Part shown: positions 13,439-53,400 of the stretch, in pieces | Layout of the letters: every line of letters starts with the position of its first letter | Position numbering within the stretch: position 1 is the stretch's first letter | Origin: an uncultured Clostridia bacterium | GTDB lineage: Bacteria > Bacillota > Clostridia > Christensenellales > Pumilibacteraceae | Direction: 5' to 3' | Length of the DNA stretch: 64,000 bases | Assembly (NCBI GenBank): GCA_947066105.1 | Contig: CAMSYM010000002.1 | Span: 148,390 to 212,389 of the forward strand | Program-made: the position numbers and the translations under genes | The notes under the pieces: generated by a model | Seen by the model: only the letters and a program-made list of their open reading frames with translations | The model's database searches: none | What the model was told of the DNA's origin: nothing

Positions 13439-16400
13439 ATGAAAAACAGTAAGTTCAAAAATTTAATAGCGGTGTTTATACTCGTTGCGGTCGCGGCGGC
13501 GTTTGCCGTCGTTTGCACCGCGTGCGCGGGAGACGCGCCCCCCCCCGTGGCTATAACCGTTACGTTTATGGACGGATCAAGGACCATATCGAGCGTTACG
13601 GGCAAGGCGGGCGATCCGCTCGCGCCGCCGACGGCGGAGCAGATCGAAAAGGCGGGGTACTCGTTTGACGGTTGGCTCGATGCCGACGGCAAGGCGGTCG
13701 ATCTGCCCCAAAAGTTCCCCGATACCGACGCGCGGTTTTACGCGAAGTATACCGCCGACGGCGAACAGACCGAAGATACGTACAAAATAATTTATAACGG
13801 TAATTTGGGTTCGATCTCCAAGGACGATGAGCTTGCGCCGTCGGTAGGCAAAACCGGCGAGACCGTCAAGCTCAAAGACGGAAAAGATTACCTTATGGTC
13901 GGGTACAGATTTCTCGGCTGGACGAAAACTCCCATCTATGTGTACGACGAAAACGACCCGTTCGATCCCTATCTTGCCGACGAAGACTTTGTCATAGGCG
14001 ACTCCGACGTCACGCTGTACGCGCAGTGGGCGACGGCTTATCGCGACGCTGCCGGCAAGAGCGCGGACGTCATATACGTTTTCGAGCCGCTTATCGATCA
14101 CGGGCTGGGCGGCGCGATCTATGCGAGCGCGGGCAAGCCCGATAAGCTCGGTTTTGTCGCGAGCGGCGACAAAACGGAGTCCGGCTATAAAGAGTTCGAA
14201 TTCTATTACGAAGACGGTAACTTTGTCGGCAGGCTTTTGGATAATCGCACTTACGCGACGCCGGGCGAGGAAGCGGGACAATACCTGTACCGCGACTATG
14301 TTGCGGGCGACGGTCCCGATTCCGTCGGCGGCGGGTATCTGATGCTCGACGGCTACGGGCTTGCCGTATATATAGAACAGCTCGGCGATCAAATAGCCAT
14401 GCGCGCGAGCGGTCGTTACGAATACGACGAAAAATACGACGACTATCTTTACGAATACATATACGAGGACGGGTCTGTCGGCGAAACGCATTTCGCGCTG
14501 ACCGACGGCGCGCCGTCCGATACGGAATTCGACGGGCTGTTTTTGTTCCAAGGCTACGAAAGCGGCGCATATTTGTTGTACGGTAACGGCGAGCTGTACG
14601 ATACCGTGCTGATGCTCAACGGCTACGGGTATGCTACGGTCTATTTTTACGATATGGCTACGGAAGAGCTTACGCTTATTTCGAGCGGCAAATATCTCGG
14701 CTCGGCGCAATACGAAGACTATCAGGGCGAATGGGAGTTCGTCGAAACGGACGGCGACTACGGCTCGTTCAAGTTTATAGTAAGCACCGTGAACAGCGGC
14801 AACGACGTTATCGCGATATTCGTGGAGTACGACGAAAGCTTTGCGGGTACGCTCAACGCGACGTCGGGCGACGGAGTTTTGTATTTGGACGGTTACGGCG
14901 GCGCGAGATACACCGCGAGCGGTATCGATTATACGGGCGAATGCGTTATAAGCGAAAGCGGCAATCTGTTGACGTTCGTACCGTATTTCGACGACGGCAA
15001 CGGGAATATCACGGTCGGCGGCACGATGTATTTCAACGTCGATCTTACCGAGCGCACGTTTACGGTCAACACGAGCGGGTTCGTGACCGACGGCACAAAG
15101 ATAGTCGACTATAAAGGCTCGGCGCAAGTGGTGGAGATACCGAACGATATTACTGCGATAGGCGAAAATGCGTTCAATTACGTAAATACCGACGTGTCGC
15201 TGATTTCGGTCGTCATTCCGTCAAGCGTTACCGAGATAGGCGCGCGGGCGTTCCAAAACGATTATACCCTCCGCCGCGCGGTGTTCCTTTCTGAAACTCC
15301 GATATCGATAGATTTTTCCGCCGCGAACGATCCGTTCAGATGGGGCGCGGGCGATTTTATAATAGTTGTGCCGGAAGGCTCGCAGGATGCGTACAAGGCG
15401 GCTTGGAGCGATTGCAAGTATTCGATAAAAGGCAGTGTGGAAGTCACCGTTTTGCCCGAATTCGAGATAGAGAACGGCGTGCTTTTAAGATACAACAAGC
15501 AGGAAGGCAGCGCCGACTTGCTTGATATAGTAATACCCGACGAAGTTACCGAGATCGCTGACAACGTGTTTCTCGGAGCTAAATTTCTGCGCTCGATCGA
15601 TCTCAACAACGTGACCGAGATAGGCGAGACTGCGTTCTACGGTTGCGCCGAGCTTGTCACGGTCAAATTCGCCAATGTCGTCGCGATAGGCGACGGCGCG
15701 TTCGGCGATTGCGTAAAATTGAGATCGAGCGGCGACGGCGAAGCTTTGGATCTGCCTGCGATCGCGCAAATAGGCGATTCTGCGTTTTACGGTTGCGTTG
15801 CGTTACGCCGCGTCGTCGTCGGCGAAAATATCGAGCGCGTGGGAAGCATGGCGTTCCGTGAATGCAATATATTCGCCGCAGATCCGCCGCTGTTTCTCGT
15901 CCTTACGGGCAACGACGTACCCGAAATGGGCGGCAACATCGCTATGGGAAATATCGCGTTCCGCATAGAGATCAACGATATATCGGTCGCGCTGAAATGC
16001 TTTACTACTAACGGCTGGAATGCGTACTGTCGGCATTTGTTCATACCGTCGGGCGACGAGAAGGGCAGTTATTTGAGCGGCGCTGACACGCTGGAATTGG
16101 ACGGCAGAGCGATATATCAATCGTCCGAAAATTGGCTGTACGCTATCGACGGCGAAAAAATAACGTTCTATGCCTACGACAGCGAGACCGCAACGTATAC
16201 GCAATTCGACGGAACGATCGTCGACGGGACAATAACCGTAAAAGTACACGGTGAGGGCGCGGACAGGACGTTCCGCAAAATTACGGGGCGCGTCACGTAC
16301 GTTACCGCCGACGGCAAATACACGCTGGAATGCAATGCCAAAGATCTCGATCCCGAAAGTTACGACGGGTATAGGGGTTATTGCGACGTCGTATTCAACG

Positions 16401-16813
16401 GAAATGCGTTGCAGATGTACGTAAACGGCTATAATTCCAAGACGATAAGCGGGTTTGTCGATGCCGACGGTTTGATGTATACGGCAAGTATTTCTTTCGA
16501 CGGCGATACCCTGGTCGTAAAACTTGTGCGCGACGAACGGCGCGAGAACATAGTCGCCGCGGACGGCAGTGTTTTGAACATACATTTCGACGGCAGTCTT
16601 GTATACGTGTACGGCGAGTTCAAGATCAAGGTCGGAACAAACAACGACGGTACCGATAAATATTTGGCGTTTTCGGAAGTGAGCGGCGTTGTAGCTTCGG
16701 TCGACGGCGATACGTATTCTTTTACTTTCAAATACTTGAACGATATTTATTCCATAACGGCGACGGTATCCGCGGACGGAAATTCGTTTGCTTATACATA
16801 TACGGTAAAATAA
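13439..16813 (+). CDS. Large surface lipoprotein with InlB-type (Listeria-Bacteroides) repeats, LDGYG repeats and BspA-type leucine-rich repeats
   Basis: Signal peptide with lipobox-like TAC (VAAAFAVVCTACAGD); InlB-like YKIIYNGNLGS...GYRFLGWTKTP...DVTLYAQW; BspA/LRR_5-like EIPNDITAIGENAF, IPSSVTEIGARAF, IPDEVTEIADNVF, VTEIGETAFYGCAEL. Confidence 0.85.
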   Translation: MKNSKFKNLIAVFILVAVAAAFAVVCTACAGDAPPPVAITVTFMDGSRTISSVTGKAGDPLAPPTAEQIEKAGYSFDGWLDADGKAVDLPQKFPDTDARFYAKYTADGEQTEDTYKIIYNGNLGSISKDDELAPSVGKTGETVKLKDGKDYLMVGYRFLGWTKTPIYVYDENDPFDPYLADEDFVIGDSDVTLYAQWATAYRDAAGKSADVIYVFEPLIDHGLGGAIYASAGKPDKLGFVASGDKTESGYKEFEFYYEDGNFVGRLLDNRTYATPGEEAGQYLYRDYVAGDGPDSVGGGYLMLDGYGLAVYIEQLGDQIAMRASGRYEYDEKYDDYLYEYIYEDGSVGETHFALTDGAPSDTEFDGLFLFQGYESGAYLLYGNGELYDTVLMLNGYGYATVYFYDMATEELTLISSGKYLGSAQYEDYQGEWEFVETDGDYGSFKFIVSTVNSGNDVIAIFVEYDESFAGTLNATSGDGVLYLDGYGGARYTASGIDYTGECVISESGNLLTFVPYFDDGNGNITVGGTMYFNVDLTERTFTVNTSGFVTDGTKIVDYKGSAQVVEIPNDITAIGENAFNYVNTDVSLISVVIPSSVTEIGARAFQNDYTLRRAVFLSETPISIDFSAANDPFRWGAGDFIIVVPEGSQDAYKAAWSDCKYSIKGSVEVTVLPEFEIENGVLLRYNKQEGSADLLDIVIPDEVTEIADNVFLGAKFLRSIDLNNVTEIGETAFYGCAELVTVKFANVVAIGDGAFGDCVKLRSSGDGEALDLPAIAQIGDSAFYGCVALRRVVVGENIERVGSMAFRECNIFAADPPLFLVLTGNDVPEMGGNIAMGNIAFRIEINDISVALKCFTTNGWNAYCRHLFIPSGDEKGSYLSGADTLELDGRAIYQSSENWLYAIDGEKITFYAYDSETATYTQFDGTIVDGTITVKVHGEGADRTFRKITGRVTYVTADGKYTLECNAKDLDPESYDGYRGYCDVVFNGNALQMYVNGYNSKTISGFVDADGLMYTASISFDGDTLVVKLVRDERRENIVAADGSVLNIHFDGSLVYVYGEFKIKVGTNNDGTDKYLAFSEVSGVVASVDGDTYSFTFKYLNDIYSITATVSADGNSFAYTYTVK

Positions 16814-41490: not shown

Positions 41491-41587
41491 GAATTGATGA
41501 CCGCTACGCGGTGAGTGAGCAATGTGCGGCTACGCCTAGATCTCTCCACTACACTCGCATACGCTCGTTTCGGTCGAGATGATGGGG
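41491..41587. repeat. 97-bp direct repeat, copy 1
   Basis: GAATTGATGACCGCTACGCGGTGAGTGAG...CGTTTCGGTCGAGATGATGGGG, matched by 41880-41976. Confidence 0.9.
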
Positions 41588-41604
41588 GGGGGTAATAATT
41601 TACT

Positions 41605-47070: not shown

Positions 47071-49530
47071 ATGGCACAGGATAACGATAAAAATACGGAA
47101 GTAACGCAAGCTAAACTCGTCGTGTCCACAATGGAAGACGTGATGCGCGACTCCATGATCCCTTATTCGGAGGCGGTCATACTGGATCGCGCGCTTCCGC
47201 GCGTCGAGGACGGCTTGAAGCCCGTTCAGCGTCGAATATTGTACACTATGCAACAGCTCGGCATTACGCCGGACAAGCCGTATAAAAAGAGCGCGCGTAT
47301 AGTCGGCGACTGCTTGGGTAAGCTCCATCCGCACGGCGACAGCTCGGTATATCAAGCTATGGTACGTATGGCGCAACCGTTCAATATGGGCGCATGCCTT
47401 GTAGACGGACACGGTAACTTCGGCTCTGTCGACGGCGACGGCGCGGCGGCTATGCGTTATACGGAAGCGCGGCTCACTCCGCTCGCGCTCGAACTTTTGC
47501 GCGATATAGACAAAAACACGGTAAAATGGAGCTGGAACTTCGACGACTCGTTGATGGAGCCGGATATGCTTCCCGGACGGTTCCCCAATCTTTTGGTAAA
47601 CGGCGCGACGGGAATAGCGGTCGGGCTTGCGACAAACATTCCGCCGCACAACCTTATGGAATGTATCGACGGCGTTATAGCGTATATCGATAATCCCAAA
47701 ACGACGTTGAAAGAGATGATGAAGATCATCAAGGGACCGGACTTCCCGACGGGCGGCGTTATAATCCCCACCGAGCTTGCTCACGCATACGAAACGGGCA
47801 AGGGCAAGATCAACGTTCGCGCCAAGCTCCATATCGAAAACGACAACGATAAAAAGATCATCGTAATAGACGAGATACCTTACGGCGTAAACAAGTCGCA
47901 GCTGTTGGAAAGCATAATCAAAGTTCGCGAGGATAAAAAGGGCGTTTTGACCGGCATAACCGACGTAGTGGACGAATCCGACCGCGTAGGCATGCGCGCC
48001 GTCATAAAGACAAAGCGCGACGCCAATCCCAAGGATATCGTCAACGCGCTGTTCAAGTATACCAATCTGTCCACCAACTTCTCGTTCAACATGGTCGCTA
48101 TCGCCGACGGCAAACCGCAACTCATGGGGTTGTTGGACATCATAGCGTATTACGTAAACTACCAGCGCGAGATCGTTTTACGCCGCACAAAGTACGAACT
48201 CGAAGCGGCGAAAAAGCGCGAGCATATTCTCGAAGGCTTGGTCATCGCCGTCAGAAATATCGACGAAGTGATCAAGATCATCAAGGAAAGCCCCAACACG
48301 ACCGCCGCAAAAGAAGCTTTGCGCAGGCGGTTCGGCTTGTCCGAGATCCAAGCGCAAGCCGTTCTCGATATGCGCCTTGCGCGGCTCACGCATTTGGAGA
48401 TATTCAAGCTCGAAAAAGAGCTTGCGGACGTTAAAAGCGAAATAGCGCGGCTTGAAGCTATCGTCGCGTCCAAGAAACTGCAAATGGAGCTTGTAAAGAC
48501 CGAACTTTTGGGCATCAGAAAGCAGTATAAAGAGAACAGAAAATCGGCTATCGTCGCGTCCGTCGAGCAGTACGTTATTCCGAGCGACGATGAAAAACCG
48601 ACGTTCGAATACGTGATCGCCGCCAACGCAAACCGTCAGGTCAAAAAGATGCTTGTCAAAAACTTCACTATGGCGAGCAAGGATTTTTCGGACAATTCGA
48701 CGCTCAACGAGATATGCAATTGTATCGTTCGCGCCAAGTCCAACGACCGAGTGTTTTGCTTTACCAATCTCGGCAATTGCTACAAGCTGGACGTCGAGGC
48801 TATCCCCGACGGCAAGTGGCGCGAAAAAGGCGCGGAGCTTAAAAAGATCGTCGCGGACGCGCTGGACGGGGAGTATCCCGTATATATGCGCGTAGTGGAA
48901 GAAAAATTGCCGAAGGGCAATTTGTTGTTCTATACAAAGCTCGGCATGGTCAAAAAGTCGCCGTGGAGCGAGTACAACGTCGTCAAGTCGGCATACGCCG
49001 CGACCAAATTGCGCGACGGCGATACAGTTATAGGCATAGAGGACGAGACGGAAGGCAGTTCGCTGATGATAGTCACCAAGTACGGCATGTGCCTTAACGC
49101 CGATATGTCCGACGTTCCCAGCCAAAACAGGATAGCTACGGGCGTGCGGTGCATGTCGCTCGCCGACGGCGACGAGTGCGTGCTTATAAAGCAGGTCAAC
49201 GGCGACGGCGAGATCGCGCTTTGTACCGATCGCGGCTACGCAAAGCGGTTGCTCGTAAGCCAGATAGACGTTATGGGCAGATACCGCAAGGGTATACGCG
49301 TGATCGACTTTGCAAAGGGCAAGACCGATAACGGCAGTTGTATAGCGTACGCCACGGTGGTCACCATGCCGTTCAAAGTGGTGTTCAACGTCGACGACGA
49401 GTATTTGACTGCGTATTCGACCGAAAACTTCTCGATAGAAAACCGCACGCATGCTGGCAAACCGCTTCTCAAAGGCAAGCACAATATCGTAGCGGGCTAT
49501 GCGTATAAAGATGCGCTCACTTATAATTGA
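47071..49530 (+). CDS. gyrA: Type IIA topoisomerase subunit A (GyrA/ParC)
   Basis: [58 protein letters not shown]...[15 protein letters not shown]. Symbol is by general similarity; ParC is not excluded. Confidence 0.9.
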
Positions 49531-49575
49531 TAACGAATAAACCGAGCGGTCGTTTAACGAATGACCCGTAAACAA

Positions 49576-49615
49576 AAAGCTCGCTACGCTTCGTTTCCGA
49601 AGCGTAGCGAGCTTT
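49576..49615. terminator. Strong hairpin after the topoisomerase subunit A gene (terminator-like, no U-tract)
   Basis: Perfect 18-bp stem AAAGCTCGCTACGCTTCG-TTTC-CGAAGCGTAGCGAGCTTT. Confidence 0.6.
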
Positions 49616-49735
49616 ACTCTACGGCAAACCGTATTTTTATCGAATGAAAATGAAACGGTTTGTTTTTGCCGTATATTGCGACGGCGCAATGCGTCGGGCA
49701 TAATAATTAGCGTGTGCGGAACATAAACTACATAC

Positions 49736-50242
49736 ATGAGAAAAAGCAGGGTGATTACGTGGCTTGCGGCGGGGTTCGCTTGCGTAGCCGTAGCGATAGC
49801 GGTTGCGATATGTATCGTGTTTCCCAATAAGTACGCGTCGAGCATCGACGCGGCGGCGGACGAATTCGGGCTTGACCGTGCGCTCGTGCGCTCCGTAGTG
49901 TGGGCGGAAAGTAAGTTCAAAAGCGACGCTGTGTCCGACAAGGGCGCGACGGGGCTTATGCAACTTATGCCCGAAACATTCGACGAATGCGCGACCGCGC
50001 TTTATATACCGCGCGGCGAAAACGCCATGATCGATCCCGAAAATTCGTTGCGTTGCGGCTGTTATTATCTGTCGTTGTTGATCGATAAGTTCGACGGCGA
50101 TACGTCCGCCGCGCTCATGGCGTACAATGCGGGCGAACTCAACGCGCGCAAATTTTTGAGCGGCGAGCCTGTGTTTAAGGAAACGCGCAAGTATCTCAAA
50201 GACGTCGCGCTTGCACAAAAGGTTTACGGGTTTTTCGCATAG
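49736..50242 (+). CDS. Lytic transglycosylase (SLT domain)
   Basis: N-terminal TM; ALVRSVVWAESKFKSDAVSDKGATGLMQLMPETFDE; ALMAYNAGELNARKFL. Confidence 0.92.
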   Translation: MRKSRVITWLAAGFACVAVAIAVAICIVFPNKYASSIDAAADEFGLDRALVRSVVWAESKFKSDAVSDKGATGLMQLMPETFDECATALYIPRGENAMIDPENSLRCGCYYLSLLIDKFDGDTSAALMAYNAGELNARKFLSGEPVFKETRKYLKDVALAQKVYGFFA

Positions 50243-50302
50243 GCGTATCGTATATACAAACATTAAGATTTCATTAAAAATCAAGGTAACGCCGAAAATA
50301 TG

Positions 50303-50330
50303 TTGACAATAGTCGGGGGGGGGGTATAAT
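50303..50330 (+). promoter_or_regulatory. Sigma-A promoter with G10 tract in the spacer
   Basis: TTGACA (50303-50308) - AATAGTCGGGGGGGGGG-type 16-bp spacer - TATAAT (50325-50330). Confidence 0.8.
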
Positions 50331-50401
50331 CTTTTTATAGACAAACATGTCGGCGTAAATGCGTCGGCGTTTTGTCTGATATCAAATCGGGAGAGTAAAG
50401 A

Positions 50402-53400
50402 ATGTTAGAAGTAAAGCATTTGCGCAAAGAGTACAGGACAAAGAACGGTGTTATAACCAAGGCGCTCGACGACGTGTCATTGACTTTTGCCGAAACGGGG
50501 ATGGTTTTTATTCTCGGTAAATCGGGTAGCGGCAAGTCGACGCTTTTGAACGTTTGCGGCGGGCTCGACAGAGCGGATTCGGGCGAGATAATAATCAAAG
50601 GGAAAAGCAGTAACGAGTTTTCGGGACAGGACTTCGACAGCTACCGAAATACATACGTCGGGTTTGTTTTTCAGGAATACAATATTCTCGAAGAATTCAC
50701 CGTGGAAGAGAACATCGCGCTCGCGTTGGAGCTTCAAAACAAAAAGCGCGATAAAGCGGTGATCGAACGGATACTCGCCGACGTCGACATGACGAGCTTT
50801 GCGAGCCGTAAGCCCAACACGCTTTCGGGCGGACAGAAACAGCGCGTCGCGATAGCGCGTGCGCTCGTCAAAGAGCCGGAAATAATAATGGCGGACGAGC
50901 CTACCGGCGCGCTCGACAGCAAAACGGGTCAGCAGGTTTTCGACACGCTCAAAAAGCTGTCCGAAACAAAGCTCGTCATAGTGATATCGCACGACCGCGA
51001 TTTTGCCGAACAGTACGGCGACCGCATAATAGAGCTTAAAGACGGAAAGGTGATATCCGATCAGACCCGCGCGGAAAGCGGCGACGGGGCGAAGAACGTA
51101 CGGTTTTTCGGCACGGACACGGTGTGCGTGACGCGCGGCGCGGAGCTTACAGACGCCGATATGCAAAGCATAAGGCAATTTTTGAACAAGTCGGGCGGTG
51201 CGGCGGTCATATCCACTTCGCGCGAACGCATTTCGGAAATGAAGCAGGACTTGCCCGAGCTGAGCGTAGGCGCGTTTGAGGATGTAAAGGAGCAGCCGCA
51301 GAGTAAAGCGTATCCGCAGCAAAAGCTTATACGCTCGCACCTGCCCGCGCGGCACGCGATAAGAATGGGCGGGAGCAGTCTTAAAACCAAGCCTGTGAGG
51401 CTCGTGTTTACGATACTTTTATCGGTCATCGCGTTCATACTGTTCGGACTCGCGTCCACGCTCATGCTGTTCGACGGTAAGTCGGTCACCAAAGAAACGC
51501 TTAACAATGCGTCCGACGAGCAGTTGGTCCTTTCCAAAGCGTATTGGGAAACGACCAAAGTGTACGATGGCGATAAGCTCGACCACGAATACGAAAACAA
51601 GCGCGAAACGCCGTTTACTTACGACGAGTTTTTGAAAATACGCGAAAAATATACGGGCGCGTTGGCGGCTGTCGGCGCAAACATATATTTGAACGAAGTA
51701 TCGATGCCGAACACAGTGCAACAGTTTTATACGACTTCGCTCGACGGACTTATCATCAACGACGATTCGCTCGAATATATTGCGGGCAAAGCGCCCGCCG
51801 CGCTCGACGAAGCGGCGATAACCGATTTCGTTTTAGACGGACTTAAAACGGATAAGACCGAAGTGACGATGTTTTCCGAAAAGACGAACAATAGCGTCGT
51901 CGTCGACGTAAATACCGCGACGGATATAATTTATACGGCGGAAAATCCCGTAAAGATTTCCGTCGGCGGAAGTTATTTCAAGATAGTCGGTATATATAAG
52001 GGCATGGCTGTGCCTGCCGAATACGTCGCGCTCAAAGAAGCGGCGGACAAGTGTTTGCAGTATGACGGCGATTATCAGTTGACGTGGCAGTGGCAGCAAG
52101 CGCGAAGCAGCGGCATGTATGCGCGTGTTGCCGTCACAAAAGAGCTTGCCGACGAGTATGTAAGCGCGGGCGGCGGCAATAATGACGATATCGATATATA
52201 TAAATATTTCGACAGCGGTTACGCTTCCGTCCAGTTGGGATTTAAAGACGATAACGACGTATTCGTTACCGAAAATTACGTGGGTAATTTCGCAAAATAC
52301 GGCGAGCGCGACGGATTGCAGCCGTTGGATATTTTCGATAGCAACGGCGACAAAGTAACTGCGTTGCCGAGCGGCAGCGTCGCAGTCAACTATACGGTGT
52401 GGGCTGAAATGCTGAGTCGAAAAATGAACGACGCGGTTTGGGGCGCAAACAACGAAACCGCCAATCGCGTATACGAAGAGTGGCGAAGCTCGGCCGCGCA
52501 AGCAGCTCGCGAAGAATACGAAAAGCTTAATCCCGAGCCGTCGCAGAACGATTGGGATGAATGGAACGAATGGAATATCGCGCTCAACGATTATATATGG
52601 AAGGTCGTCGACGAGCAAGACCCTATAAGCTCTTTGCGCCGCGTAGCATACGGTGAGATCGCCGATATGAAGACGATCAAGAGCGTGATAAAAAGAGCGG
52701 GCGATATGGCGGCGAGAATGGAAGTCGACGCATCTTGCACCATTTACAGCGAATATAACGGCGAAGAACGTCCTGTAACTTTAACCGCAATGTTCTTTTT
52801 GGGCAGATATGATTACGTTGCATATCTTTCCGACGAGCTATACGATCTGTATTACGTCTCGCAGTCTTATGACAACGATTGGCATAGCGAGTATTCGACT
52901 GATTACGTTGTACCCGAAGATGCGTTTATTTCCACGGTGTTTATACCTAAAAGTTCAAGCGCCGTCAACGAGTTTGTCGATCTCACTTACGAGCGCGGTA
53001 ATGACGATTCTACTTTCATGATAAGAAACACCGTTATGTTGCAGCTCGATATGCTTATCGGCATGGCGGGCGCGCTCGAAACGGGATTTTTGATCGCGGG
53101 CTTGGTGCTTGCGCTGTTCGCGTTCCTGTTGATGTTCAATTTCATTTCGGCGTCTATTACAGCCAAAAAGAAAGAGATAGGTATATTGCGAGCCATAGGC
53201 GCGAGAACGCTCGACGTGTTCAAAATATTCCTTTCGGAAGCGATGATAATCGCGCTTATTTGTTTTATTATTTCGACGGCGGGCGCGTTCGGCGCGTGTA
53301 TATTGCTTAACACGACGTTGATAACGGATACTTTTATCAAGGTCAGCGTTTTCGTATTCGGTCCGCTGTCGGTGGCGTGCATACTCGGCATAGCGTTAGT

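Follow-up and report, generated by a model that had tools for sequence, protein, structure and literature searches.

A G10 tract in the promoter spacer of an ABC transporter gene of an uncultured Clostridia bacterium: a candidate slippage-tuned promoter

The transporter locus and its promoter

The window, meaning the whole 64,000-nucleotide stretch of DNA that was analyzed (GC content ~53%), contains a gene for a fused ABC transporter in which an N-terminal ATPase domain (PF00005) is combined with a permease domain (PF02687) (Table 1). The best solved relative of the transporter is MacB. Judged by its sequence, it is a member of the MacB/LolCDE/BceAB superfamily without assignment to a specific subfamily, and none of the best 25 NCBIfam matches listed passed the cut-off of its model. 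A lytic transglycosylase gene lies on one side of the transporter gene and an ftsK/spoIIIE-type gene on the other.

The predicted promoter of the transporter gene reads TTGACA-ATAGTC-G10-TATAAT, so that, as in porA-type promoters, a long homopolymer is located between the −35 and −10 elements. This anatomy, with a 16-bp spacer whose G10 adjoins TATAAT and an ATG at 50402, had been given in a preliminary description of the locus and was re-read as claimed. The same description held that this is the only consensus promoter upstream of the transporter, in agreement with our search, in which TTGACA-16 bp-TATAAT was the sole 12/12 promoter-like site within 49400-50700. The end of the −10 element is 71 bp from the transporter ATG. 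A strong predicted leader hairpin begins 8 bases past the −10 element and is also present in the nearest relative (G006), where the stem has a different sequence; no Rfam family matched the hairpin. Its position fits the predicted transcription start near 50337-50340, which supports the use of the G10 promoter.

Table 1. Features of the transporter locus in the window, and transporter-family promoters with their own G run in other genomes
Feature	Position	Strand	Remarks
Lytic transglycosylase gene (SLT)	49736..50242	+	upstream neighbour, outside the proposed switch
−35 element TTGACA	50303..50308	+	from sequence; TTGAC kept at the matching place in 12/12 genus orthologues
Spacer, 16 bp (ATAGTC then G10)	50309..50324	+	from sequence; orthologous spacers 17 bp
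G10 homopolymer, candidate slippage tract	50315..50324	+	from sequence
−10 element TATAAT	50325..50330	+	from sequence; TATAAT also in the nearest relative (L064)
Leader hairpin at predicted mRNA 5′ end	50338..50378	+	z −4.0 here, −4.5 in the relative
Ribosome-binding-site-like GGGAGAG	50389..50395	+	sequence reading
Fused ABC transporter gene, 1025 aa	50402..53479	+	ATPase + FtsX permease
G084 promoter, TTGACA-AATATTTTC-G9-TACACT			spacer 18 bp
G070 transporter-family promoter, G9			spacer 17 bp
G077 transporter-family promoter, G8			spacer 17 bp
L102 transporter-family promoter, G10			spacer 18 bp

Poly-G tracts in the genome and across the lineage

There are nine G5 or C5 runs in the window, none of 6 to 8 bases, and three of 9 to 10 bases. 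In the 2.05-Mb genome we identified, from searches and the sequence flanking tracts, 49 distinct G9-G11 tracts, ~39 of which are outside a dispersed repeat, and the genome-wide G6 count implies that G6-G8 runs are few. Extrapolation from the G5 rate yields an expectation of ~0.03 runs of G9 or longer for the whole genome. A large excess of this kind, concentrated in promoters, surface genes or regulators, is what characterizes a phasome. The preliminary description had taken the transporter tract to be without counterpart in the unique DNA of this genome; this premise was wrong, and its correction strengthens the idea of phase variation.

By our own classification, nine of the tracts fall in promoter spacers, nine within or bordering LytTR response-regulator genes, ten in the dispersed repeat and 21 elsewhere, 13 of these last inside scored reading frames. 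Eight of the spacer tracts are present as coding-strand G runs and one as a C run; the genome-wide expectation for spacers is ~0.4, under a rough model that allows one 17-bp spacer per gene. The genome contains 19 LytTR genes (20 match rows, as a tract splits one gene). In twelve of the 19, the gene or its promoter carries a run of at least nine G, as compared to ~0.5 expected (hypergeometric p ~1e-15, assuming 1900 genes). The LytTR tracts are positioned in response-regulator promoters, at regulator-kinase junctions and inside the regulator, and at a junction a change in tract length would be expected to alter both how the regulator ends and how it is coupled to the kinase gene.

Two further tracts of the window lie away from the transporter. 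A C9 run at 13538-13546, in the predicted lipoprotein gene at 13439-16813, encodes PPP directly past a lipobox-like region and is, from its sequence, a candidate coding contingency tract; the nearest relative has G9 at the matching place. A G9 at 41584-41592 ends a copy of the dispersed intergenic repeat (GATCTCTCC...TCGAGATGAT-Gn) that holds ten of the 49 genome tracts.

We searched related genomes for the promoter pattern TTGAC-N(0-12)-G8-N(0-10)-TATNNT, using the same pattern reversed as a control. Of the 74 family genomes 42 contained the pattern, as did 64 of the 247 genomes of the order, and the reversed pattern had no match in either set. Among 299 other phylum genomes, sampled evenly, 12 contained the pattern and reversed matches were about as many, indicating that in this sample it is near chance level. 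A C-run version was much rarer (10 of 74 family genomes). The position of the G run is variable, adjoining the −35 element, the −10 element or neither, and its length ranges from G8 to G15. Genes located 3′ of these promoters in the relatives, inspected by eye at their N-termini, resemble those for lipoproteins, ABC transporters, membrane proteins and response regulators. In one genome (G027), around a dozen promoters are near-identical and differ in part by whether they have G8, G9 or G10. The C-run promoters TTGACATA-C9, C12, C17-GTG were considered as orthologues of different length and rejected; because the genes downstream of them differ, they are not used here as evidence of length variation.

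Loss of MutS was ruled out as the cause of the tracts: the source genome has an open MutS gene, as do 36 of the 37 genomes searched, so that absence of MutS does not explain them. Alternatively, G9-G11 runs may tend to grow by mutation in this lineage, as runs which promoter spacers merely tolerate and whose length changes were never selected as a switch. The ten tracts in the dispersed repeat and several others without a clear role fit such a tendency, as do the tract numbers, which within a single genus differ widely between species (zero to dozens). Set against it are the strong bias to spacers and to a single orientation (coding-strand G, with the reversed control empty), the share of LytTR genes that carry a tract, and the recurrence of tracts in transporter-family promoters (Table 1). 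We consider this explanation unlikely.

Spacer and tract lengths among relatives

The G tract of the transporter promoter is absent from 12 orthologues in the genus, and the spacer is exactly 17 bp in all 12. The source promoter has a 16-bp spacer, and thus a single extra G (G11) would give 17. Transporter-family promoters with their own G run occur in four other genomes (G084, G070, G077 and L102, Table 1); G070 and G077 belong to the same genus, and their tract may have a single shared origin. We observed a second recurrence at the promoter of another ABC ATPase gene, with runs of G15, G12, G10 and an interrupted G10 in G002, G013, G015 and G003, respectively, and spacers that we read as ~22, 15, 19 and 22 bp. 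In G082, a related transporter (L179) has a G10 ~9 bases 3′ of the −10 element, a position outside the spacer and in the initially transcribed region.

The spacers of G-tract promoters (99 sites) are spread mostly across 15-20 bp, whereas ordinary promoters from the same set of sequences show a sharp peak at 17 bp. Within the 14-20 bp range, a 17-bp spacer was found in 12 of 91 G-tract promoters and in 63 of 107 ordinary promoters (Fisher p ~1e-11), with the reservation that the related genomes are not independent and that roughly a dozen of the ordinary promoters are orthologues of the transporter promoter, each with a 17-bp spacer. The contrast is still large after removal of a dozen transporter-promoter sites. 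In a smaller set, drawn from the loci around tracts, 7 of 28 G-tract promoters have a 17-bp spacer (p 0.0025).

A static G run, serving as a protein-binding site or as a helical-twist stretch that suits promoters, would give length change no role. Some orthologous promoter tracts do keep their spacer total, as in the L003 promoter, where 6+G10 is matched by 5+G11 and a one-G difference is compensated by a T. A static element is hard to reconcile with tracts that vary in length and in their placement between the −35 and −10 elements and leave the spacers scattered, and with like tracts within coding sequence, where they cannot serve a promoter; we regard it as improbable.

The nearest relative (G006) has 92% protein identity to the source genome (G000). 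Orthologous tracts of G000 and G006 have lengths of 10/11, 9/8, 10/9 and 9/11 at several loci, some of these differences being offset by flanking indels, and several other orthologous tracts are equal in length; tract lengths in short-read MAGs can be erroneous. A LytTR response regulator (L058, G000 C21:17423) has a G10 that shifts the frame, yielding a protein of 188 aa that ends inside the DNA-binding domain. Its counterpart in G006 (L211) has G9, is whole at 236 aa and is 96.6% identical. Tract length decides gene integrity here, as in a phasome; the comparison is between species, showing that a one-G difference decides integrity rather than that switching occurs within one population. In two response-regulator regions (L020/L204 and L056/L219) G000 and G006 are 99-100% identical, as compared to ~78-96% for most other orthologous tract regions, and this near-identity may be due to recent exchange, strong conservation or cross-binning.

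At the transporter promoter, positions 1-47 of the G006 contig (CANDGE010000089.1, L064/L093) are Illumina adapter joined directly to TATAAT. The adapter ends exactly at the 3′ edge of the tract, so that the G006 tract length is unreadable there. Other G006 contigs end in, or turn into, low-complexity G/C junk at tracts. Both observations are what would be seen if the G run or its exact length were a sequencing or assembly artefact, but the G10 tract lies inside a 212-kb contig and its flanks are coherent, a genome assembled separately has orthologous tracts at matching positions, and an artefact would not favour promoter spacers or a single orientation. We judge an artefact very improbable. 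A scan of genome contigs found no second genome of the source species and gave the contig of the nearest relative, and no same-species copy was found in viral contigs.

A proposed slippage switch and known systems

We propose that the G10 run is a contingency tract in a sigma-70/sigma-A-type promoter and that its slippage probably tunes transcription of the ABC transporter, as in porA. Slipped-strand mispairing in replication would gain or lose one G and so shift the spacing of the −35 and −10 elements around the 17-bp optimum, which would raise or lower transporter transcription in a heritable and reversible manner. The assembled state, G10, has a 16-bp spacer, and G11 would give 17 bp, as in the tract-free relatives. 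The transporter promoter would then belong to a group of about nine such promoters and 49 tracts, a set also concentrated on LytTR regulators. We infer slippage at the G10 tract within the source species, and its effect on transcription, from comparisons of sequence.

The suggestion of a phase-variable promoter in the preliminary description gains strong indirect support from the 17-bp orthologues, the recurrent tracts, the scattered spacers and the pair of broken and intact regulators. The uniqueness premise that accompanied it has fallen, as noted above. Counting against a switch are the G000 and G006 tracts that are equal in length and the L003 spacer total that is unchanged; in addition, intact MutS would slow slippage. 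For the order, we lean toward a large poly-G contingency system with MutS kept, in which a genome would combine as many as ~20 slippage-tuned promoters with phase-variable LytTR two-component regulators and single-base slips would rewire whole signalling circuits in addition to single envelope genes.

If this is true, common uncultured gut commensals would diversify within the host via single-base slips in promoters and two-component regulators, and this would account in part for heterogeneity at strain level. Existing metagenomic reads allow tract lengths to be counted directly at about 49 sites of the genome, with the caution that at such tracts MAG contigs can break and gene calls can split. 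The switch mechanism itself is already known; its scale, the lineage and the concentration on LytTR regulators appear to be unreported. No report of such switches in this order was found in the open-access literature, and this is weak evidence of novelty given that the search was limited to open access.

Homopolymer phase variation has been studied best in Gram-negative pathogens. In the porA promoter of Neisseria meningitidis, 11 G residues lie between the −35 and −10 elements, variants with 9 G and 10 G arise, and the level of expression changes in steps instead of switching ON/OFF (PMC3639595). Poly-G between the −35 and −10 elements is thus common to porA and the transporter promoter (PMC3639595). 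The porA case concerns a porin gene of a Gram-negative pathogen, whereas the present candidate concerns an ABC transporter of an uncultured Clostridia bacterium with about nine such promoters in its genome.

Phase variation of coding genes by homopolymeric tracts is known in Helicobacter, Campylobacter and Neisseria, and in a survey of 99 genomes poly-G of 7-8 was overrepresented in the coding genes of only 9 (PMC2831843). As in those systems, G runs of ~8-11 set the reading frame in the L058/L211 response regulator. The genome described here differs in that its tracts are concentrated on LytTR two-component regulators, its GC content is ~53% in the window, and MutS is kept. The sortase-pilus switch of Bifidobacterium breve is described as an ON/OFF switch by replication slippage in a Gram-positive gut commensal (PMC9187656). 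The switch acts on pilus clusters of an actinobacterium, and replication slippage in a Gram-positive gut commensal is the feature that it would share with the promoter proposed here (PMC9187656).
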